DNA of 33,612 nucleotides from Candidatus Hydrogenedentota bacterium (lineage in GTDB: Bacteria > Hydrogenedentota > Hydrogenedentia > Hydrogenedentales > CAITNO01). How positions within the stretch are numbered: position 1 is the first letter of the stretch; each line of letters starts with the position of its first letter. The stretch is from assembly GCA_012730105.1 (NCBI GenBank), contig JAAYBJ010000047.1, forward strand, positions 1 through 33,612, read 5' to 3'. Positions 1,730-23,938 of this stretch are shown in pieces. Under the pieces are notes generated by a model. The model was not told the origin of the DNA, did no database searches, and worked only from the letters and a program-made list of their open reading frames with translations. Both the position numbers and the translations under genes were made by a program.

Positions 1730-4669
1730 ATGTGCTCTCGTTGTACTTTCGCGGTGATACTATTCTGCATTGCGCTAGTGGCTCGACCGGCGGTTTCGGC
1801 AACCCCCGAATTTCTCGTGCAGGGCGATATGCTTCATATCATGAATGCTGATACGGAACTGAGCGTTTCCCTGCGTTCGCCGAAACTCCGATTTCGTGAT
1901 TATGACGGCTGGCAGGGTGATCTTCCACCAACGAGTATTGAAGGTGATATTGCCGCCGGGGAAATCGTCATTGTCACGTACGCGCCCCTGAACGTGGGGG
2001 AAACGGCAGCCCTTGATCTTCAACTTCAGCTGCAATGGTTCCGGGACGAGGGGGTGCTGCGCAAATGGATGAAATTAAACGTGGTAGATACAGAAGCACC
2101 GCTGTTGCTGGAAGAAGTGCTGCTGGACACATTCAACGCGGCATTGCTGGTGGAGGTTCCTCGTATTTCACCTCCCCGGAGCATGCCCGTCTTCCTGCCA
2201 GGTTTCTTTGCGGGGATTGAATATCCCGTGGCCGCCACGCGCGTGGAGGAAACATCTCTGTATGTGGCGCATCGCCCCATGGCTCTCTTGTCGGCGGGCG
2301 CGACTTATGGAAGCAGGTGCGCGGTGTACGGGATGGCGGCGCCTGGCAGGGAACGCGAGGCATTTCACCGCTACATCGAGTCCCATCGCCCAGCGCCCCA
2401 CGGGCTGCATTTCAATTACAACAGCTGGTGGACGTCGCCGGTGCCTTTTTCGGAACAGGACATTCTCGGACTGATGGCCGTGTTTGAAAAAGAACTCTAC
2501 CAGGCGCACGGCGTCGCGCTGGACAGTTTTACCATTGACATGGGCTGGTCCAATCCCCAAAGCATCTGGGAGATCGACGCGAAACTCTTCCCGGAAGGCT
2601 TCTCCCGCATCCAGGCCGCGGCGGAGCGGATGGGCGCGCGCCTCGGTCTGTGGGTCTCGCCGTCTTCCTTCTACAGTCCCGCCCTGGACCCGGCATGGGC
2701 GCGGGAACAGGGCTATGAATCCTTCGATTTTTCCGTGCCCTGGAGCGCGAATCCGGTGCGGCTGCTGAGCCTGGGCGGGGAACGCTACGCGGCCCGGTTC
2801 CGGGAACGGCTGACGGAGATGGTGTCCCGTTTCGGCATCCGCCAGGTGAAGTTAGACGGGTATTATCTCGGCGATGACACCTTTGAGGCCGGCCCCCACA
2901 GTTCCGAGTCGACGGCAGCCGGTGGCATTGCCGCCTTTGAAGCCGTGCGCGCCGTAGCGCCCGACGTCTGGTTTGAGGCCACCTTCGACGCCAATGCCAG
3001 TCCATGGTGGCTGTTTTACCTGAATTCCGTGATCGGCGGCTTTGGTGATGACTCCCCGTACGGCCGTGTGCCGTGCCCGGTTTACCGGGAGAGTTACACC
3101 ACCGCCCGGGACTACTATAACCTGCAGTCCGCCGACCGACTCTTCTCGCCTGTTCCCGCGCAGGAGATCCTGGGCATCATCCATCAGAGCAACGACCCGT
3201 TCATGAACGATGCGGTTATGTGCCTCCTCCGGGGGAACGCGTTCGTGTCGCTGTATATCAACCCGAAGCACATGAATGAAGCGCGTTGGAAACGACTCGC
3301 GGAAACCCTGCGCTGGGCCCGCGCCAATGAAGACACCCTGGTGAACGCGCACACCGTGCCGTTGCGTCCGGACGCGTGGCTGCGTGACGGCATCCCCTGG
3401 CAATCCCACGACGCGCCCATGCCCAGAACGCCTTACGGCTACGCTCACTGGACCGATTCCGGTGGGTTGATCGCCCTGCGCAATCCCTGGGCTGCGCCGC
3501 AGTCCTATCGCCTGGCGCTGCCCGAAGGGGCGGGCGCGGGGCTGGACCTGATCAGTCTCTACCCGGAACCGCGCGTTTACGGGCGGAATGTAAATCCTGG
3601 GGATACGGTGGAGATGCCGCTCGCACCTTATGAAACCATTGTGTTGAGTGTGCGGCCCGCTACCGATGAAAGTGATGGCCTGCCCGGTGCGGATGCCTGT
3701 GTGAAAAACCGGGTTGTTGTGAATTCCTGTACCAGCCGCGTGACCCGGGTGTCTTTCCAAGAAGAAACGGCATCCTTGGGGCCGGACTGGACTGATGCGG
3801 AGGGCTTTGATGCCGGTATGCTTGAAACGACGCTGGATACCCGTGTGGTCATCGACGAGGCGGAAGGGCGCCTGCTGGTGCTGGCGGAAGGTGGGGACGC
3901 GCCGCCCCGGCTTTCAGGGAAGCTTATCGTAAATGACGCGGCGGTAGAAACGCGCGCAACAGGCTCAGGACAGGGCTTTGCCGCATCGACCGCCCCGCCT
4001 CCGGAGCATTGGAATTTCCTGGAGGCGGCACTGCCCTCGGGGGAATCCACCCTGAAACTGACCGTTTCCGCGGATATGGACGTGTCCGATATTTCCGTGT
4101 GGGTGTGGGCGCTGAAACCGGGAACCGGAAAACCGGACTTTCCGAATGCGCTGCCTGCGCCCGAATGGATCTCCCTGGGAGGTGCGGCCTTGCTGGCGCC
4201 GGGTGCTTTTGCAGTGGACCTTAAACAGGAAACGCGTCCGCGCCGGGTGGAACGGATAAACGGCCTTTTCCTCGATGTCTTGGAACCCCTTTCCGAGCAG
4301 CAGGGCTGGGGAAAACTACAGCGAAACCAAAGCGTTTGGGAAAAGCCCATGACGATTGCCGGACGCCATTTCCGACGCGGCTTGGGCGTGCATGCGGTAT
4401 CGGAGGTGGTCTATGCCCTCAATGGCGGGTACACAACTTTCGAGGCGCTGGTGGGGATGGACGGCGCCAACCGGGGCACAGGCGACTTCGAAGTGTGGGT
4501 GGACGGAACGAAGCGATGGGAATCCGGCAGAATGACCTGGGAGGACGCGCCGCAGGCTGTGCGTGTGGACATTTCCGGCGGATTGGAATTGCGACTTCGG
4601 GTAGGCGATGGCGGTGACGGCATCACAGGCGATCATGCTAACTGGGCTGAGGCAAGGCTGCTGCGATAA
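1730..4669 (+). CDS. secreted GH36/GH27-like (clan GH-D) glycoside hydrolase with C-terminal NPCBM domain
   Basis: A 979-residue exported glycosidase, probably an alpha-galactosidase or relative. Residues 1-24 form a signal peptide ending near VSA|TPEF. A beta-rich N-terminal domain precedes a TIM barrel at about 220-560 with the melibiase-like stretch FTIDMGW...LFPEGFSRI...GARLGLWVSPSS. The expected nucleophile is D376 in VKLDGYY. An Asp pair D440-D441 in GGFGDDSP is in the right place for the acid/base. A beta-sandwich follows. Residues 845-979 match an NPCBM/NEW2 carbohydrate-binding domain (RRGLGVHAVSEVVYAL, then DGANRGTGDFEVWVDG). The ATG has GAAAGGA about 8 bases upstream. The next gene, 190 bases on, is a secreted deacetylase, so both may act on the same external glycan. 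The substrate is not fixed by the sequence. Confidence 0.85.
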   Translation: MCSRCTFAVILFCIALVARPAVSATPEFLVQGDMLHIMNADTELSVSLRSPKLRFRDYDGWQGDLPPTSIEGDIAAGEIVIVTYAPLNVGETAALDLQLQLQWFRDEGVLRKWMKLNVVDTEAPLLLEEVLLDTFNAALLVEVPRISPPRSMPVFLPGFFAGIEYPVAATRVEETSLYVAHRPMALLSAGATYGSRCAVYGMAAPGREREAFHRYIESHRPAPHGLHFNYNSWWTSPVPFSEQDILGLMAVFEKELYQAHGVALDSFTIDMGWSNPQSIWEIDAKLFPEGFSRIQAAAERMGARLGLWVSPSSFYSPALDPAWAREQGYESFDFSVPWSANPVRLLSLGGERYAARFRERLTEMVSRFGIRQVKLDGYYLGDDTFEAGPHSSESTAAGGIAAFEAVRAVAPDVWFEATFDANASPWWLFYLNSVIGGFGDDSPYGRVPCPVYRESYTTARDYYNLQSADRLFSPVPAQEILGIIHQSNDPFMNDAVMCLLRGNAFVSLYINPKHMNEARWKRLAETLRWARANEDTLVNAHTVPLRPDAWLRDGIPWQSHDAPMPRTPYGYAHWTDSGGLIALRNPWAAPQSYRLALPEGAGAGLDLISLYPEPRVYGRNVNPGDTVEMPLAPYETIVLSVRPATDESDGLPGADACVKNRVVVNSCTSRVTRVSFQEETASLGPDWTDAEGFDAGMLETTLDTRVVIDEAEGRLLVLAEGGDAPPRLSGKLIVNDAAVETRATGSGQGFAASTAPPPEHWNFLEAALPSGESTLKLTVSADMDVSDISVWVWALKPGTGKPDFPNALPAPEWISLGGAALLAPGAFAVDLKQETRPRRVERINGLFLDVLEPLSEQQGWGKLQRNQSVWEKPMTIAGRHFRRGLGVHAVSEVVYALNGGYTTFEALVGMDGANRGTGDFEVWVDGTKRWESGRMTWEDAPQAVRVDISGGLELRLRVGDGGDGITGDHANWAEARLLR

Positions 4670-13730: not shown

Positions 13731-14372
13731 TTACTGTGCCGCGGCATCCGCAGCAGGCGCCGCTTCCACCGGTGCGGCATCCGCAGCGGGAGCCGCCTCT
13801 GCGGGAGTCACCTCTATCGGAGCCGCTTCCGCCGGCGTTGCTTCCACAGGCGTTACTTCCACAGGCGTTACTTCCACCGGGGTCGCTTCGGCTGGAGCAG
13901 CTTCCACGGGCGTTACTTCCACCGGGGTCGCTTCGGCTGGAGCGGCTTCCACGGGCGTTACTTCCACCGGGGTCGCTTCGCTTGAAACGGCTTCCCCTTC
14001 GACGACCGTTGCCGCAGCCTCGGTGGCGGGCGCCTCTCCCTCAGTGAAAAGGGATTCCATGGAGATTGCGGGCGTTGCATCGACGAGTTCCGGCGCGGCC
14101 TGCCGTCCGACCCTGCCGGACAGGATGGACATGACCAGCGCCAGCATCATGAAGATGCCCGCGGAAGCGTAAGTGATTTTCTGGGGCAGGCTTTTCGAGG
14201 AACGCGGCCCGAATATGGTATCCATGCCGCCGCCCATGCCGAAAGCGCCTGCGAGCCCCTGGCCCTTGCCCTTCTGGAGCAGCACAATGATAATCAGCCC
14301 GAAACAGGCCGGGATGTACAGCAGAAGGATGAGCCACCACAAGGTGTTCAGACTGAAGATGATGTCTAGCAT
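13731..14372 (-). CDS. secG: preprotein translocase subunit SecG with long low-complexity tail
   Basis: A 213-residue inner-membrane subunit of the SecYEG channel. The first part is ordinary SecG: a transmembrane segment at about 10-32, the signature VLLQKGKGQGLAGAFG at 30-45, FGPRSSKSLPQKIT, and a second transmembrane segment at about 67-85. SecG is usually 70-115 residues long. Here about 100 extra residues follow, composed almost only of Ala, Pro, Glu, Val and Thr in repeats of EATPVEVTPVEAAPA type. By E. coli topology the tail would be periplasmic. It lies 64 bases downstream of tpiA and is followed by a likely terminator. SecG beside tpiA is a common bacterial arrangement, which supports the call. 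Confidence 0.92.
   Translation of the reverse strand: MLDIIFSLNTLWWLILLLYIPACFGLIIIVLLQKGKGQGLAGAFGMGGGMDTIFGPRSSKSLPQKITYASAGIFMMLALVMSILSGRVGRQAAPELVDATPAISMESLFTEGEAPATEAAATVVEGEAVSSEATPVEVTPVEAAPAEATPVEVTPVEAAPAEATPVEVTPVEVTPVEATPAEAAPIEVTPAEAAPAADAAPVEAAPAADAAAQ
13881..13970 (-). repeat. 45-bp tandem repeat encoding the SecG tail
   Basis: Two adjacent 45-bp copies (13881-13925 and 13926-13970) differ by a single A/G change, and diverged partial copies extend on both sides. Each copy encodes a 15-residue Glu/Ala/Thr/Pro/Val unit in frame. The near identity suggests recent expansion by slippage or unequal recombination. Confidence 0.85.
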
Positions 14373-17098: not shown

Positions 17099-18016
17099 TC
17101 ACTCTTGCATCACAAGCCTCAGCCCCACGTCTTCACGCTGGTTTTCAGGAAGTCCGGTGCCGCGAAATGCGGATCGGCAGTTCTTCGCGGGCTGCTGGAA
17201 ACTGCCTCCCCGGCGCACCCGGTTGGCGTTTTCATTGGGGTGTTCCCAGGCGGAAGCATCGCCCGGATGGTTGCCGTAATTCTCCCAATAATAATCCTGG
17301 CACCATTCATAAACATTGCCGTGCATGTCGTAGAGGCCCCAATAATTGGGTTCCTTTTCTCCAACAGGATGGTGGCCAGTGCCGCTGTTGCCGTCGTACC
17401 AGCCGCAGCGATCCAAGTCCGAAACACTATTACCGGAACAATAGGCGGTCCGGCTGCCCGCCCGACAGGCGTATTCCCATTCGGTTTCCGTTGGCAGGCG
17501 GAAAGTGCGCGGAGATACTGCATTTAATCTTTGGATAAAACGCTGGCAGTCCTCCCAGGATATATTTTCAACCGGATGCTCGTCCCCATAGCGGTATTTA
17601 GAGGGATTGTTCCCCATGACGGCCGTCCACTCGCCCTGGGTGACTTCGTATTTGCTCATCCAGAAAGATTTGGCCATGACCGCCCGGGATACCGGGGATT
17701 CATCTTTCGCGCGGGCGGGTTCGGAGTTGGGGCTGCCCATGAGGAATTCTCCGGCAGGAATACGAACGAACAGGATACCCTCTGCAAGGCGCACTTCCTG
17801 TTGTATTCTGTTTTGAACCGGCGTTGCTTTCGGAATCTCTTCGGTTGGCATGGGAACAGGTTGTGTGGCACGATTTTTTGGGGGAGTGACAGGGACTTCC
17901 GTGGGTATTTCCAACTGGGCCTGAGCCGAAACAGCAAAAACACACATGACGATAAAGGCCATCCTAAAACCAGTGGCTAGGGTTATAACGTAGAATGAAA
18001 ACTGTTTCATCTGCAT
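17099..18016 (-). CDS. secreted SUMF1/FGE-sulfatase-domain protein with QLEIP N-terminal tag
   Basis: A 305-residue exported protein. A signal peptide (1-33, ending SAQA) is followed directly by QLEIPTEVPVTPPK and a Pro/Thr-rich linker. A SUMF1-type domain (PF03781) occupies about 80-305, recognised by VRIPAGEFLMGSP, KYEVTQGEW, HPVENISWEDC, RLPTETEWEYACRAG, GLYDMHGNVYEWCQD and a final RRGGSFQQ...CRSAFRG...VGLRLV. True formylglycine-generating enzymes carry two nearby active-site cysteines (CxxxxC). Here only the single Cys in NCRSAFR is present, so a sulfatase-maturation activity is unlikely and a binding or structural role is more plausible. ATG 18016 has AGGA nine bases upstream; ATG 18010 is an alternative. 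Its neighbours 223 and 236 residues long share the N-terminal tag. Confidence 0.88.
   Translation of the reverse strand: MQMKQFSFYVITLATGFRMAFIVMCVFAVSAQAQLEIPTEVPVTPPKNRATQPVPMPTEEIPKATPVQNRIQQEVRLAEGILFVRIPAGEFLMGSPNSEPARAKDESPVSRAVMAKSFWMSKYEVTQGEWTAVMGNNPSKYRYGDEHPVENISWEDCQRFIQRLNAVSPRTFRLPTETEWEYACRAGSRTAYCSGNSVSDLDRCGWYDGNSGTGHHPVGEKEPNYWGLYDMHGNVYEWCQDYYWENYGNHPGDASAWEHPNENANRVRRGGSFQQPAKNCRSAFRGTGLPENQREDVGLRLVMQE
17876..17917 (-). other. segment encoding the shared tag QLEIPTEVPVTPPK (SUMF1-domain protein)
   Basis: This segment directly follows the predicted signal peptidase site SAQA|Q. It shares sequence at protein and DNA level with 18676-18717 and 20790-20831 in two unrelated genes of the same cluster. 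Confidence 0.85.
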
Positions 18017-18132
18017 GTTCCCTTTTCCTGTAACACAGATCCGCGATGACTCAATCAACCACCCTGATAGAACATGGGCAGTTCAGGCAGAGTATATAGA
18101 GGACCATGATGATCCCATTATGCCATTAATAG

Positions 18133-18804
18133 CTAAAATTGCAGCGCATTTTGAATTTCTCTGTCATCATCCAGGGCTGAGGTAGTGAATTCCAGAAAAA
18201 TAGCGCCGGAAGACCCGCTCTTGTCGGTCCAGCGGCCTGTCATGCCGGCACCATCCGGCTGTACATGCAACGCTATCTGATCGAGTTCGTATTGGTCGGC
18301 CGGACGCTTGTTCTTGATTACACCCGTTCCAGACAGGGTAATCTTGTCCCCCTCTTGAACTCCCCTGAAAACTTCCCAGCACGTCCATCCTTTGACGGTA
18401 CCGGCCGCGCGCAGTTCGTTTTTATCGTTCACGGCGACCTCGAGGGTAAATGTTCCGCGGGTGCCGTTGGATTTTCCCCAGTTTCCCGTCCACCTGCCGG
18501 ATGGGATGGGACCGGAATTAAAGGAAGCGCCTTTTTCCGCTTGTGTTACCCGCCTTTCGTTTCTGCTTGAAACCCTGTTCGTTTCCCTTGCCTTTGAAGC
18601 CGGTTCCGGTTCAGAGACATCGAAGTTTCCCTGCGTGGCAGAGGGCTCGGTTCGGGGAGAATCGGTGTGTTTCGCCTTGGGGCGATTGATTGGGATTTCC
18701 GAAGGTATCTCCAGTTGTGCCAGGGCGGCAGGGATACAAACCACCAACGAGAATAAAAGGACAAAAATGGTTTGCCAGTAGGGTGGATGGCATCGGTAAG
18801 ACAT
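18133..18804 (-). CDS. hypothetical secreted protein with QLEIP N-terminal tag
   Basis: A 223-residue protein of unrecognised family. The signal peptide (1-29, IPAALA|Q) is followed by QLEIPSEIPINRPK and a Ser/Thr/Pro/Arg-rich linker to about 105. The C-terminal half, from GRWTGNWGKSNGTRGTFTLE to LEFTTS, has alternating strand-like stretches and Gly-Thr turns, suggesting a small lipocalin-like or other beta-barrel domain. The start at 18804 is clear, with GAGGAG seven bases upstream; an in-frame extension to 18885 would bury the signal peptide. It lies 112 bases after the NagZ-LysM gene and about 115 bases before the SUMF1-domain gene on the same strand. Confidence 0.78.
   Translation of the reverse strand: MSYRCHPPYWQTIFVLLFSLVVCIPAALAQLEIPSEIPINRPKAKHTDSPRTEPSATQGNFDVSEPEPASKARETNRVSSRNERRVTQAEKGASFNSGPIPSGRWTGNWGKSNGTRGTFTLEVAVNDKNELRAAGTVKGWTCWEVFRGVQEGDKITLSGTGVIKNKRPADQYELDQIALHVQPDGAGMTGRWTDKSGSSGAIFLEFTTSALDDDREIQNALQF
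18676..18717 (-). other. segment encoding the shared tag QLEIPSEIPINRPK (223-residue protein)
   Basis: This is the second copy of the mature N-terminal tag, after IPAALA|Q. Differences from the other copies are conservative (T to S, V to I). Confidence 0.85.
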
Positions 18805-18916
18805 GACATTTCTCCTCGAAACATTCAAACAACTATGGCGGTTGGTCTCGAACCAGCCTGGTGCTGGTATAAATCCTTTAGACAATTTCGCAAGGGAACC
18901 GCTGTTGTCGGTCGTC

Positions 18917-20194
18917 TCATTGATCCGGTATCTTCAGTATATCACCGACACGGATCGTGTCATCGGTTTTGTTGTTGGCGTTCCGAATTGCTTCGGATGT
19001 GACACCATAAATAGTTGCCAATTTTGAAAGGGTGTCTCCCGGCCGTACCGTATGGGTGACCAGGATCACCTTTTTCTGGTTGACGATTTCATCCTTGATT
19101 TCCGGCCGCGCCGTTTCCCGGGGAAGATGGTTCGTTACAATGCGCGAGCGGAAATCTTCCAGCCGTTGTCCGCTTTTCATCAGCATATTCTGAAACTGCG
19201 GATCCTTTTTTGATTCTTCCTCTATCGCCTTCGCGATCCGGCGCAGGAGTTCCGGATTGCTGTCGCAGATTATGATGGCATCACAGCCCGCGCGAATGGA
19301 TTTCAGGGCGGCCGCCTCAAGGTCGCCGGCAACGGCCCCCATATTCAGATCATCGGTGATAACCATGCCGTCATAGCCCCAGCTTTCCCGGAGGAGACCC
19401 GTTACCATTGCGTGCGACATGGACGCCGGTTCGTCCGGATATTCAGGGTTCAGGGCGGCGCAGGCAATATGGCCGACCATGATTGCCGGGAGCCGCGCTT
19501 CCACCGCCAATTTGAAGGGCGTAAGATTCACCTGAAGCGCTTCCCCCTCGAGGTCGAGACGGGCCAACTGCTTGTGGGAATCTTCCGCAGCGCCGCCATG
19601 TCCCGGAAAATGTTTCACCACGGGCAGCCCGCCCCCTTCCATGACGCCTTCCGCAAATGCGCTGCCCAACAACCAGGCATGTTCCGGATCCTTGGCGAAG
19701 GCGCGGTCGCCGATGACGCCCCCATCACCGGGCGAACTGAGGTCAAGCACCGGCGCCAGAAGCACCTCGATACCCCTGGCCGTCGCTTCCCGGGCGTAAA
19801 AGGCGCCCGTTTCCCGTATCCGGTTCTCATCACCCCTTGCGCCCAGTGTCGCGGCGCTGGGCGCGTTTTCAAGCTTCAACCGATTGACGCGTCCGCCCTC
19901 CTGGTCAATATGGATCAGGGGCAGTTCGCCGGGGCCTGCTTTTCCGCTAACGGCTTGCTTTATCGCAAATGTCAACTCGCGCGTTTGTTCTTCGGTCCCC
20001 ATGTTTCCACCGAGCAGAATGACGCCTCCCGGCTGCAGTTCAGCGAGTAACGCTTTTTGTTCGGCGGAAAGTGTTTTGCCGGTAATGGCAACAATCAGGC
20101 TGTGCCCCGGTACGGGGGTGGGCCCGGCAGGACTTGCGATGTCTGTCTGTGATGCGCAGAGAACGAAAAAGCAAAGAAGAGAGACGGTATTCAA
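18917..20194 (-). CDS. secreted GH3 beta-N-acetylhexosaminidase (NagZ-like) with C-terminal LysM domain
   Basis: A 425-residue glycosidase expected to release GlcNAc from muropeptides or other beta-GlcNAc glycans. NagZ signatures are HIDQEGGRVNRL (95-106), KHFPGHG (194-200), the Asp-His dyad D205-S-H207 and nucleophile D281 in VITDDLNMGA. Residues 380-423 are a LysM peptidoglycan-binding domain (HTVRPGDTLSKLATIYGVTS). A hydrophobic N terminus (1-20) suggests export; E. coli NagZ is cytoplasmic and lacks LysM, so this one probably acts on the wall itself. The start is a TTG at 20194 with GGAG seven bases upstream; that ribosome site overlaps the end of the previous gene, whose stop is only four bases away, so the two are translationally coupled. 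Confidence 0.9.
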   Translation of the reverse strand: MNTVSLLCFFVLCASQTDIASPAGPTPVPGHSLIVAITGKTLSAEQKALLAELQPGGVILLGGNMGTEEQTRELTFAIKQAVSGKAGPGELPLIHIDQEGGRVNRLKLENAPSAATLGARGDENRIRETGAFYAREATARGIEVLLAPVLDLSSPGDGGVIGDRAFAKDPEHAWLLGSAFAEGVMEGGGLPVVKHFPGHGGAAEDSHKQLARLDLEGEALQVNLTPFKLAVEARLPAIMVGHIACAALNPEYPDEPASMSHAMVTGLLRESWGYDGMVITDDLNMGAVAGDLEAAALKSIRAGCDAIIICDSNPELLRRIAKAIEEESKKDPQFQNMLMKSGQRLEDFRSRIVTNHLPRETARPEIKDEIVNQKKVILVTHTVRPGDTLSKLATIYGVTSEAIRNANNKTDDTIRVGDILKIPDQ

Positions 20195-20198
20195 TGGT

Positions 20199-20909
20199 TT
20201 ACTCCACTACACGGATGGTAAGCAGACGGCAGGGAAAGCCCTGTTCATCCAGTTCAGGGCTGGTATCAGGTATATTGTGTTCCACGACGGTTTTCTTGTT
20301 GCGCAATACGGAAAAAGACGCTCGCACGCGAAGGGATGCGATTCCGGCCCGCTGAAATGTGACCGGAAACGCCAGTGTCTTTTCCGTATTGCCGGCCCAT
20401 CGCTCATCATAAACTTCCACGTGAGTAACGGCGGGATACACCACATCACGCCGGAGCCACACATTTCCGTCCTTATAGAAGCGGGCCATCTTGGTCTTGC
20501 CGTTCGGTGTCAGCATATCATATCCGCCGTCACCCGGAGGTATATAGGGATCACCGCCTTCTACGGAAGCGGCAATTGTACCGATATAAGACACGTTGAA
20601 TGGATTCTTCGCATTGATGTGAACAAAAACGCGTTCCCCCACACGCGCGGAGGAAGGGCAGTCGACAGAAATCCCGTCCGTATTCATGCCCGTTTCCTGT
20701 GTCGTAACGGTTCGTACCCGGGAACCTTGTGTACTGGTATCTGTTCTTATGGGCGCAGGCAGACTAGGCGGTTCTTCCGTTCGCTTCGGCTTGGGGCGGT
20801 TAACAGGAACCTCCGTGGGAATTTCCAACTGGGCGGCGCCCGGTCCCGGCACAAGCAGCGACACCAATACTACCAGTGAAAAAACACAGCAGAAAGACAG
20901 ATATCGCAT
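20199..20909 (-). CDS. hypothetical secreted protein with QLEIP N-terminal tag
   Basis: A 236-residue protein of unrecognised family. The signal peptide (1-26, PGPGAA|Q) is followed by QLEIPTEVPVNRPK and a Pro/Thr/Arg-rich linker to about 75. From SVDCPSSARVGERVFVHINAKNP onward the pattern resembles an immunoglobulin-like or adhesin-type beta-sandwich, with VTFQRAGIASLRVRASF near the C terminus. This fold call is from appearance only. The start is well supported by GGGAGG six bases upstream of the ATG. It lies 49 bases downstream of the 831-residue gene and four bases upstream of NagZ-LysM, clearly within one operon. Confidence 0.8.
   Translation of the reverse strand: MRYLSFCCVFSLVVLVSLLVPGPGAAQLEIPTEVPVNRPKPKRTEEPPSLPAPIRTDTSTQGSRVRTVTTQETGMNTDGISVDCPSSARVGERVFVHINAKNPFNVSYIGTIAASVEGGDPYIPPGDGGYDMLTPNGKTKMARFYKDGNVWLRRDVVYPAVTHVEVYDERWAGNTEKTLAFPVTFQRAGIASLRVRASFSVLRNKKTVVEHNIPDTSPELDEQGFPCRLLTIRVVE
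20790..20831 (-). other. segment encoding the shared tag QLEIPTEVPVNRPK (236-residue protein)
   Basis: This is the third copy of the mature N-terminal tag, after PGPGAA|Q. Its first ten residues are identical to those of the SUMF1-domain protein's copy. Confidence 0.85.
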
Positions 20910-20958: not shown

Positions 20959-23454
20959 TCATACATCGTTGTTCGTGTCCTTCATCGGCATGGGCTGTTC
21001 CGGTTGCATCTGAACCATGGGTATCGGCGGCAGGACATGTTCCATGATCCGCATATGCTTGAGGCGGTCCTGGCTCAGCAGGGTAATTACCGCACCGGGC
21101 AAAATTAAAACCACGGTACAGCAGCATTCGAATCCGATCGTTTCTGTAAAAGTCAGGCAAAAATGGGAGAAACGGAAATCGGGGGCTGTTCTCGCGGCCG
21201 CAACCGCACGGGCAAAGGCGATCCAAAGGGCGAGCAGCAGGAGGAATATCTTGGCGGCCACCTCCGCCGCCAGGCGAAGCAACCGTCCGAGTGCCTGTGT
21301 TTCTTCCCGCCCGAGGTCGCGCCGTTTTTCCTGAAGGGAGGCCACACTTTCTTTCAGACGTTTGTTGTCCGCCGTTGCCTGGTCCAATGCCATCCGAAGC
21401 GCCAGCATGCGGGCATCCTCAGGCGCCGCTGTTTCATCCGACAAGCCGCGCAGGTGGCGCTGCAGGGTGAGCATTTCCATCGCTGTGTTCAGTCCTTCCC
21501 ATTCCGTTTCACTGTAATACTGAACGAGGGCATACATGTCATTCAAGGCCAGCAGGGGTTTTGCGCCCACCGAGTCAATAATCGTTGCCAGTTGCAGGCG
21601 AATGGTGGTTTCCAGCAGTTCCCGCGCCTTCGCAGAGGCTTGATCCTGCTGGTATAACTGGATACCCGTCCAGGTGCCCAGGGATACGGCCTCCTCCTCA
21701 TACCAGCCGGCATCGAAGCCGGCGGGCCACAAGGCGTTCACCTGGTAAAGCATCTTGTCGGGCATGGCCGACAGGCGTTCCGCCAGGGGGCCGGTTATCG
21801 CGGGAATAAGACCGTTTTTTTCGGCCGCCGCGATCAGTGCGGTAAACTCGTCCGCGCCGCCCGCCGCGGATACGCCCTTTACCAGCAGCCATTCAACGGT
21901 ATGGGGCAAATCCAGCCCCGCGGCGGTTTGGGCGATTACGAGAAGCTGATCCACGTTTTTATACCCGGCCAGAGTTTCCAACTGTTGTTTAACGCGTTCC
22001 TTGTCCGTGATTTCGTCAAGGAGGCGGACGACCTTCAGGTTATCATCCAGCTCTGGGTAAGGATTTTTGACTGCAGAATTCACTACGAATTCGGCTGCCC
22101 CTTTCTGGGTGTGTTTCAGGGCCAGCCGGGCTACATTTTCGACGACAACATAGGGTTGCTGTTCGGCAAAGAGGGTTTCCACAACGTTTTGATATTCTTC
22201 GGTGAGTTTGACTTGGTGGGCGGATTCGAGAATCAGGACTATGTCGCCTAACTTTTCCACTTTGTCAATCGCGGCCGGGATCATTTTTTTAACCTGCTCG
22301 ACCGATTGATAACTGGCGAGAAAACGCATGATTGTGGCCAATGCTTGCATATTCATGGAGGAAAGCGCTGCGCCGTCGTTTGCCAGCAGGAGCGCCCCAC
22401 CCTGTTCCACCAATTCACGCACCGTATCCCGCCCGGCAACCTCATAAAGCGACGCTTTGATGAAGTAATAGCCAATGGAACCGTAACGAACTTCTTCCGT
22501 GAAAGAAGCGCCTTGGGATTCCGGTATCTTTACAATGGGCAAGTGGCCGTGTTGTTCGGCGGATCGAATCATGGCCTGAATTACTTCGTATTCCAGGGTT
22601 AACCGAATCGTTTTCCCTTCCTGAAGCGTGTCCAGGATGTGTAAGGCACGTTCAAGGTGCGTGAAGTTTATATAGTCGACCGCCTGGCTCATTTCAGGCT
22701 GTATTGAAGGCACTGTCGCTGGTGTCTCCCCTGCTGTTTCCGCAGGGCTTGCATCGGGGTACGATGCGTCTTCGCCTTCGGATGCCTCTTCGGCGGCTGG
22801 AATGGCATCCCCTTGCTTCTCCGGGGTTGCCTCAGGAGCATCCGTTGATGATGAGACCTCCAGGTTCGGTTGTGTGGATGTCTCCGCCGGCGTTTGCGCC
22901 ATGGCGGGCAGGGCCAGCATAAGTAAAAGGCATAGAACGATCAGGAACCAGACAATTTTGGCCGCGGCACTCAGCGGGAGCGGTTGTGTCCCGCCCGACT
23001 TGCGCAGGGGAAGGGAAAAAGGAAAAGAGAAAGAAAGAACTTTGCGCGCGGAAGCGGGAAATCCGATAACCAGAATAAGCAACGCGAAAGCGCCGCAAAT
23101 GAACGCTATGTTGGCCAGTGTGGGAGAAACAAAGCGTAAAGGGGTCATGAACCTTTGGCCCCATTCCAGCATTATCGCGCGGGATTCGTAGTTACGGATG
23201 CGTTTTGCCGTTTGATCGTTTTCTTCTGAAAGCCGTTCTTCCTGTTCTGACAATGCGGTATTTTCAATCTTTAAGGACTCAATCTGTTGCTCCAGTTTGG
23301 CATACTCGGAGGGGACAGCATCGGAAGCCTGTGGTGTGGCTGTGCCCGGTTCCACGGTCGCGGATTCCGGCAGAGCCAGGTTCTCTCCCCATATCAACGG
23401 GCATGACAAAATGACCAGGATTAAAACCGATAAGCGGAACAGAAATAACTTCAC
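20959..23454 (-). CDS. hypothetical large membrane protein with coiled coils and helical repeats
   Basis: An 831-residue protein of unrecognised family, apparently first in the envelope operon. In order: signal peptide (1-23); coiled coil at about 50-93 (EYAKLEQQIESLKIEN...); transmembrane segment near 115-135; a second hydrophobic segment at 165-186 ending LPAMAQ, which looks like an internal signal peptide; an acidic Pro/Ala/Glu-rich linker at about 190-255; a long helical region to about 680 of alpha-solenoid appearance; coiled coil at 684-732; transmembrane segments near 735-755 and 770-792; and a Met/Pro-rich cytosolic or periplasmic end. A GTG at 23454 is preferred as start because GGAGGG lies seven bases upstream, whereas an ATG at 23469 has no ribosome site. 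A structural or trans-envelope scaffold role is only inference. Confidence 0.75.
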   Translation of the reverse strand: MKLFLFRLSVLILVILSCPLIWGENLALPESATVEPGTATPQASDAVPSEYAKLEQQIESLKIENTALSEQEERLSEENDQTAKRIRNYESRAIMLEWGQRFMTPLRFVSPTLANIAFICGAFALLILVIGFPASARKVLSFSFPFSLPLRKSGGTQPLPLSAAAKIVWFLIVLCLLLMLALPAMAQTPAETSTQPNLEVSSSTDAPEATPEKQGDAIPAAEEASEGEDASYPDASPAETAGETPATVPSIQPEMSQAVDYINFTHLERALHILDTLQEGKTIRLTLEYEVIQAMIRSAEQHGHLPIVKIPESQGASFTEEVRYGSIGYYFIKASLYEVAGRDTVRELVEQGGALLLANDGAALSSMNMQALATIMRFLASYQSVEQVKKMIPAAIDKVEKLGDIVLILESAHQVKLTEEYQNVVETLFAEQQPYVVVENVARLALKHTQKGAAEFVVNSAVKNPYPELDDNLKVVRLLDEITDKERVKQQLETLAGYKNVDQLLVIAQTAAGLDLPHTVEWLLVKGVSAAGGADEFTALIAAAEKNGLIPAITGPLAERLSAMPDKMLYQVNALWPAGFDAGWYEEEAVSLGTWTGIQLYQQDQASAKARELLETTIRLQLATIIDSVGAKPLLALNDMYALVQYYSETEWEGLNTAMEMLTLQRHLRGLSDETAAPEDARMLALRMALDQATADNKRLKESVASLQEKRRDLGREETQALGRLLRLAAEVAAKIFLLLLALWIAFARAVAAARTAPDFRFSHFCLTFTETIGFECCCTVVLILPGAVITLLSQDRLKHMRIMEHVLPPIPMVQMQPEQPMPMKDTNNDV

Positions 23455-23938
23455 CTCACATCCCTCCATGGTTACGATTGCGATATCTGCTTGTTATGGC
23501 TTTATTTGCGGATGTCCTAAGGGCATCCACGCTCACGCTTGTGATTATCCCGCCAAAGAAATCCTTTCGAGAGAGACGAAAATAGGGGTGCACAGTTTGA
23601 AATGGTGCCTCTGACCTCATAAAAAGCGGATAGCAGGTTGTCTTGTACTGGACGTGTACTATCAAAATAAACTGCCCCTACAATCCGTCCACCACTATCA
23701 ATACAGGCGAAATACAAAGCGTATGATATGGCTTCTCCCTTGGATATCCTTCCACACATTCTGTTAGTACAATACACCAGCAAAAAATCTGAATGCAAGT
23801 TTCTGTCAATAAATAATACAAGTGTCATTCGAGGGATTCTGTAACCTTATGCAGTAAATATGACAGAATAGTGACATCATGATGTTCATGAACCGGTTGG
23901 GGTTCGTTGACGCAGATAGAATGAAAGGATGAAGACAG
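23455..23938. other. 484-base divergent intergenic region
   Basis: This AT-richer stretch separates the envelope operon (-) and the mannose-1-phosphate guanylyltransferase gene (+) and must hold the promoters for both. A 103-codon frame on the minus strand at 23517-23828 exists but shows no ribosome site or recognisable protein. No clear promoter pair or operator was found. Confidence 0.5.

Follow-up and report, generated by a model that had tools for sequence, protein, structure and literature searches.

Why should secreted proteins with different domains begin with the same few residues? The question is raised by a gene cluster in the window, a 33,612-nucleotide stretch of DNA from a Candidatus Hydrogenedentota bacterium, where three minus-strand genes read Ala followed by QLEIP[T/S]E[V/I]P right behind the signal peptide and have little else in common (Table 1). 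A hydrophobic segment precedes the tag in each product, and only the SUMF1 protein has a Pfam match (FGE-sulfatase), which bears out the sequence-only reading of this DNA that three otherwise different secreted proteins share a tag behind the signal peptide. The 236-residue protein (p236) and the 223/250-residue protein (p250) match no Pfam family, and NCBIfam offers no useful name for either of them or for p836, the membrane protein of the same locus. With belief and doubt about evenly balanced, we propose that the shared sequence is an N-terminal docking tag and that a partner from the same locus, most likely p836, reads it.

Table 1. Coordinates in the window of the tagged genes, their tags and the neighbouring genes
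Feature	Position	Strand	Basis
Tagged SUMF1/FGE-sulfatase-domain protein	17099..18016	-	Pfam PF03781, 3e-46
Tag QLEIPTEVPVTPPK of the SUMF1-domain protein	17876..17917	-	Q codon at 17917; preceded by VSAQA
Tagged p250 protein, avidin-like 8-stranded beta-barrel domain	18133..18804	-	AlphaFold model
Tag QLEIPSEIPINRPK of the beta-barrel p250 (223-aa) protein	18676..18717	-	Q codon at 18717; preceded by PAALA
Untagged exported NagZ-like GH3 glycosidase, C-terminal LysM	18917..20194	-	Pfam; same cluster
Tagged 236-aa protein (p236), globular domain without family match	20199..20909	-	Tagged homologue in G060
Tag QLEIPTEVPVNRPK of the 236-aa protein	20790..20831	-	Q codon at 20831; preceded by GPGAA
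p836, candidate tag receptor	20959..23469	-	Topology, structure model and homologues

The tagged genes and their neighbours

The start of the SUMF1 gene is read from the sequence as the ATG at 18016, and the list of open reading frames has a longer version from a TTG at 18058. Its product is 39% identical to a tagged PEGA+SUMF1 protein of G060, a relative from another family. The barrel of p250 is modelled with a pLDDT mostly of 90-96, and its nearest folds are avidins and designed barrels (Z 10.5-12.7); tagged homologues occur in G006, a relative from the same family, where the barrel is joined to SH3b, and in G060, where it is joined to Sel1. A sequence search of the p236 and p836 families against solved structures returned nothing significant. 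The p236 and p250 domains are also found untagged, often in larger proteins, in genomes that lack p836. The untagged NagZ-LysM protein of the window is 51% identical to an untagged NagZ-LysM that adjoins p836 in G060. Farther along the window, at 13731-14372 on the minus strand, lies a SecG-like protein whose C-terminal tail is long and repetitive, rich in Pro, Glu, Ala and Val, with ATPVEVTPVEAAPAE-like repeats.

How far does the likeness of the three tagged genes extend? Their DNA identity averages 78% in the tag's first 21 nt and 63% in the 9 that follow; upstream it is 24-38% and past nt 60 it is 20-34%, so the similarity is confined to the short tag part, as had been claimed. In a profile-profile comparison with hhalign, the p236 and p250 families align only over a 36-column region around the tag; the three genes are therefore not full-length paralogues.

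Distribution of the tag

The tag was sought in 68 genomes of the phylum, all of one order, including the window's own genome (G000, 5.6 Mb). A relaxed pattern that drew on no sequences but those of G000 and G006 picked up three tagged genes in G060, and a search with p836 in the same step matched G060 as well. The pattern used later to profile the 68 genomes was built with all three spellings known, so that the relaxed scan is the less biased of the two. In all, the tag stands behind a signal peptide in 3 of the 68 genomes: G000, G006, where QLIIPNEVP occurs once, and G060, where QLIVPKE occurs ten times. The sequence-only reading had looked to the secretomes of related genomes for further copies and for a range of carrier domains, and both are found there, with at least 11 protein architectures carrying the tag in the three genomes. 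The one tagged protein seen in G006 is a p250 homologue, in which a signal peptide, NAQLIIPNEVPRQESP, an SH3b domain and the p250 barrel follow one another, and its gene lies directly downstream of a p836 homologue. The consensus over the genomes is A-Q-L-[E/I]-[I/V]-P-x-E-[V/I/A]-P.

Other matches did not hold up. Motif scans of G000 found no copy outside the three window genes; three looser matches were rejected for want of a signal-peptide context. Three congeners of G000 yielded no tag, and among 59 relatives the strict pattern gave nothing except two stray matches (G031, G021), neither of which showed the motif after A/G/S on rescanning. In the GTDB contig collection, QLEIP[ST]E[VI]P[VI] matched one sequence, from Streptococcus cristatus, where by our own estimate about one match is expected by chance. 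Relaxed matches in G007, G012, G035, G047, G048, G056 and G067, and further ones in G000:C57, G002, G003 and G051, fall at internal positions or in unconvincing frames, with no signal peptide ahead; those in G000:C57, G002 and G003 belong to one homologous protein family. In G048, eight identical matches to one pattern (L055, L061, L064, L066-L070), four of them at contig ends, are probably a repeated element.

With every copy inside one gene cluster or, for G060, on four short contigs, the tag does not qualify as a genome-wide sorting signal. Of the earlier suggestion of a sorting, anchoring or docking tag, the part that stands is a tag shared by different domains; a general role does not.

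The spelling of the tag goes with the genome and not with the carrier: QLEIP[TS]E in G000, QLIIPNE in G006 and QLIVPKE in G060, with the p236, p250 and SUMF1 carriers spelled in the first way in G000 and in the third in G060. Such a pattern fits one co-evolving reader, or gene conversion. Could the tag instead bind itself, its N-terminal strands pairing with each other or completing the beta-fold of a neighbour, as in donor-strand exchange? The identical spelling within a genome and the alternation of hydrophobic residues would suit such self-association. The carriers, however, include unrelated folds among which no shared acceptor is evident, the conserved prolines limit strand pairing, and the adjacency of p836 would be left unexplained; we regard this as improbable.

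Selection on the tag peptide

The ten tagged genes of G060 encode a PEGA+SUMF1 protein, an EF-hand protein, an NTF2-like protein (read from the sequence only), a CarboxypepD_reg+SPOR protein, a p250 barrel joined to Sel1, a PDZ-like protein (a weak Pfam match), a GH3 protein, a 297-residue protein without a name, a p236-domain protein and a product cut by a contig end. They are spread over four contigs of an assembly that is fragmented and 7% contaminated. Two of these contigs carry one half of p836 each and are therefore neighbours. G060 and the window have in common p836, NagZ-LysM, the p236 protein, the p250 domain and SUMF1.

Across the ten genes, the seven residues of the tag are 100% identical at a DNA identity of 82%, and all seven codons vary synonymously. 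Codon-pair differences number 163 synonymous and 0 nonsynonymous in the tag, and 77 and 464 in codons 8-20; the flanks are 3-28% identical in amino acids, the preceding Ala excepted. Because codon-pair counts are not independent, the probability under neutrality was calculated from the minimum of 10 synonymous changes, and is about 9e-7. Selection therefore acts on the G060 tag peptide, which is not merely a fresh copy of DNA. Recent exon-like shuffling of DNA, the origin first suggested for the tag, gains no support as a sole cause, with synonymous sites strongly diverged and the peptide kept.

Duplication nonetheless has had a part. Some pairs of G060 genes share the signal peptide or the linker along with the tag, which shows that gene starts were duplicated locally there as well. 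Might the tag be no more than a relic without function, a 5' gene segment copied among neighbours by local duplication or gene conversion? The two genes that read GIAHP before QLIVPKE are alike beyond the tag, in signal peptide or linker, the EF-hand and GH3 linkers resemble each other, and three copies of the G060 tag are identical in DNA. Against these stand the complete lack of nonsynonymous differences, the sharp boundary at the tag and the conservation of the motif across genera and families, and together they leave a functionless relic very improbable indeed. The tag is real, is under selection, sits on many unrelated domains and is tied to one type of locus.

The tagged GH3 protein of G060 (L073:1417-2637, minus strand) is a paralogue of NagZ-LysM in which KHFPGHG has become KVYPGVG and LysM is lost. 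To judge from these changes, it is probably an inactive enzyme, with the tag in place of its relative's wall anchor. An L,D-transpeptidase-like protein (L072:4228-5115, plus strand) adjoins the tagged genes and begins with GIMAQVSPKENAP, which may be a degenerate tag.

Position of the tag behind the signal peptide

With cleavage sites placed by eye from the sequence, the tag abuts the predicted site in every G000 and G006 carrier. About 5 of the 10 carriers in G060 have it 2 to ~26 residues past the likely signal-peptidase site, as in GIA↓HPQLIVPKE (twice), ASA↓S...TTCAQLIVPKE, ALA↓A...AYAQLIVPKE and TPA↓T...RYAQLIVPKE (the arrow marks the likely cut). A mature N terminus beginning with a Gln that could cyclise had been offered as the key to the tag; as about half of the G060 tags lie past the likely site, it appears not to be a general requirement.

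The same positions bear on the possibility that the motif extends the signal peptide, resembling YSIRK or a c-region element, and steers translocation or cleavage during export. Abutment on the cleavage site in G000 and G006 is what such an element would show, but the offsets in G060 and the divergence of the signal peptides themselves, with 0-20% amino-acid identity upstream of the tag, make it a poor prospect. The YSIRK/GXXS signal is N-terminal, lies inside the signal peptide and directs a subset of secreted proteins (PMC5962339), whereas the tag comes after signal peptides that have no motif in common.

p836 as the candidate reader

What, then, would read the tag? Towards its N terminus p836 has a signal peptide, a coiled coil (54-111) and transmembrane segments at ~121-139 and ~172-190, and a disordered linker follows. 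Beyond it come a modelled helical-repeat solenoid (~257-680), a long helix (684-740) and further transmembrane segments at ~741-759 and ~782-800. The model was built from 4 sequences, with a mean pLDDT of 65 overall and mostly 74-94 in the helical-repeat region, and its structural matches are generic helical-repeat solenoids (Z up to 10.3). TPR/HEAT-like solenoids often bind extended peptides, which makes p836 a natural candidate and, as far as its model goes, the likely reader.

A partner that co-occurs with the tag had been anticipated, and p836 answers to this: it is present in the same 3 of the 68 phylum genomes, adjoins tagged genes in each of them, and was found in no other of the 386 genomes of a wider search, which gave no relative outside the phylum. 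No p836 was found in viral contigs. Diverse carriers of one tag, present behind signal peptides in 3 of 3 p836-positive and 0 of 65 p836-negative phylum genomes (Fisher 2e-5), give the many-to-one profile of tag and partner, though as the tagged genes and p836 are adjacent this co-occurrence speaks less strongly for contact than the Fisher value suggests. It could reflect the inheritance of one operon and not an interaction, given that the genes are neighbours and that the known loci number three.

Alternatively, the tag may be a functional docking or sorting peptide with another reader, such as an envelope machine encoded elsewhere, an exporter of the outer membrane or the LysM-bearing NagZ, and p836 an operon neighbour or a client. 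Selection on the peptide does not name the reader, and an untagged NagZ-LysM is present in the G000 and G060 clusters. However, none was found on the G006 contig, p836 is the sole untagged gene that adjoins tagged genes in all three genomes, and no other family has been shown to track the tag. A reader other than p836 is thus unlikely, if the most serious of the alternatives.

In the docking reading, with p836 as the most likely partner, the tagged proteins would be exported by Sec and their signal peptides then removed. The tag would come to lie near the mature N terminus on a flexible linker rich in Pro, Ser and Thr, where one partner from the same locus, probably the periplasmic part of p836 modelled as a TPR/HEAT-like solenoid, would bind it. 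The carriers, exported and probably periplasmic, would bring SUMF1, beta-barrel, EF-hand, SPOR, Sel1, PDZ-like and pseudo-GH3 modules together on one membrane scaffold, which the LysM-bearing NagZ of the cluster may join. We infer signal cleavage, the periplasmic location, tag binding and the receptor role of p836. The fuller proposal, of a genome-specific tag of 7-10 residues and a dedicated p836 solenoid receptor that build a modular envelope complex and change together between lineages, is more tentative, and we lean slightly against it.

Comparison with known address tags

Is such a tag new? N-terminal tags as a kind are already known, and the tag itself appears to be undescribed: as the sequence-only reading had supposed, no motif of this kind was found in the literature searched. 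The accompanying view, by which every known sorting tag is C-terminal, needs correction. It is right for LPXTG, PEP-CTERM, GlyGly-CTERM and the T9SS CTD, whereas here the common motif is N-terminal and the rest of the proteins differ; the YSIRK/GXXS signal, the LES of Bacteroidetes lipoproteins and the TonB box are N-terminal. The LES, or lipoprotein export signal (K-(D/E)2 or Q-A-(D/E)2; PMC5080379), likewise addresses a wide variety of exported proteins by a short N-terminal stretch. In lipoproteins of that kind a lipidated N-terminal Cys stands ahead of the acidic motif, and the tagged proteins have no lipobox Cys where cleavage is predicted.

Like the tag, the TonB box of TonB-dependent transporters and colicins (PMC11658791) is short and flexible and sits close to the mature N terminus of various proteins, and its reader is the periplasmic domain of one inner-membrane protein, the part that p836 would play here. 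That reader is TonB, whose C-terminal domain binds the box by strand addition; the candidate here is a helical solenoid. The motifs differ, ETLTV in colicin M against QL[EI][IV]PxE, and the tagged carriers are neither plugged TonB-dependent beta-barrels nor colicins, with Pfam matches to FGE-sulfatase, EF-hand, SPOR, Sel1, SH3, GH3, weakly PDZ, or none.

PEP-CTERM/exosortase and GlyGly-CTERM/rhombosortase pair C-terminal signals with membrane proteases (PMC1569441, PMC3237569). The likeness lies in the many-to-one arrangement of a short homology tag and one membrane protein, found in sporadic genomes; the tag here is N-terminal and p836 matches no protease family. LbcA, one of the envelope TPR scaffolds, is a lipoprotein of the outer membrane and an activator of the CtpA protease. 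Like p836 it is an envelope protein with helical repeats, and it is believed to recruit several clients connected with the wall, for which the part of that account consulted describes no shared tag (PMC11021448). It is among the weak fold matches of p836, which reflect a generic repeat fold only.

Where one receptor gathers many unrelated exported proteins by a short linear tag, the cases known are mostly C-terminal signals that membrane proteases handle. If the docking reading is true, an N-terminal tag and an adjacent membrane solenoid, with lineage-specific spelling, would amount to a small code by which exported proteins dock, and would give functions to unannotated domains and to a large unannotated membrane protein.

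Two details of p836 itself may be added. A frameshift near base 3102 divides the gene of its G006 homologue (L039:2741-5303, plus strand), either through an assembly error or because the gene is broken. At ~172-192, the end of the third hydrophobic segment resembles a signal-peptidase site (AMA↓Q in the window; G006 has AVA↓Q and G060 AFS↓Q), and judging by these residues p836 might be cut there into two parts.
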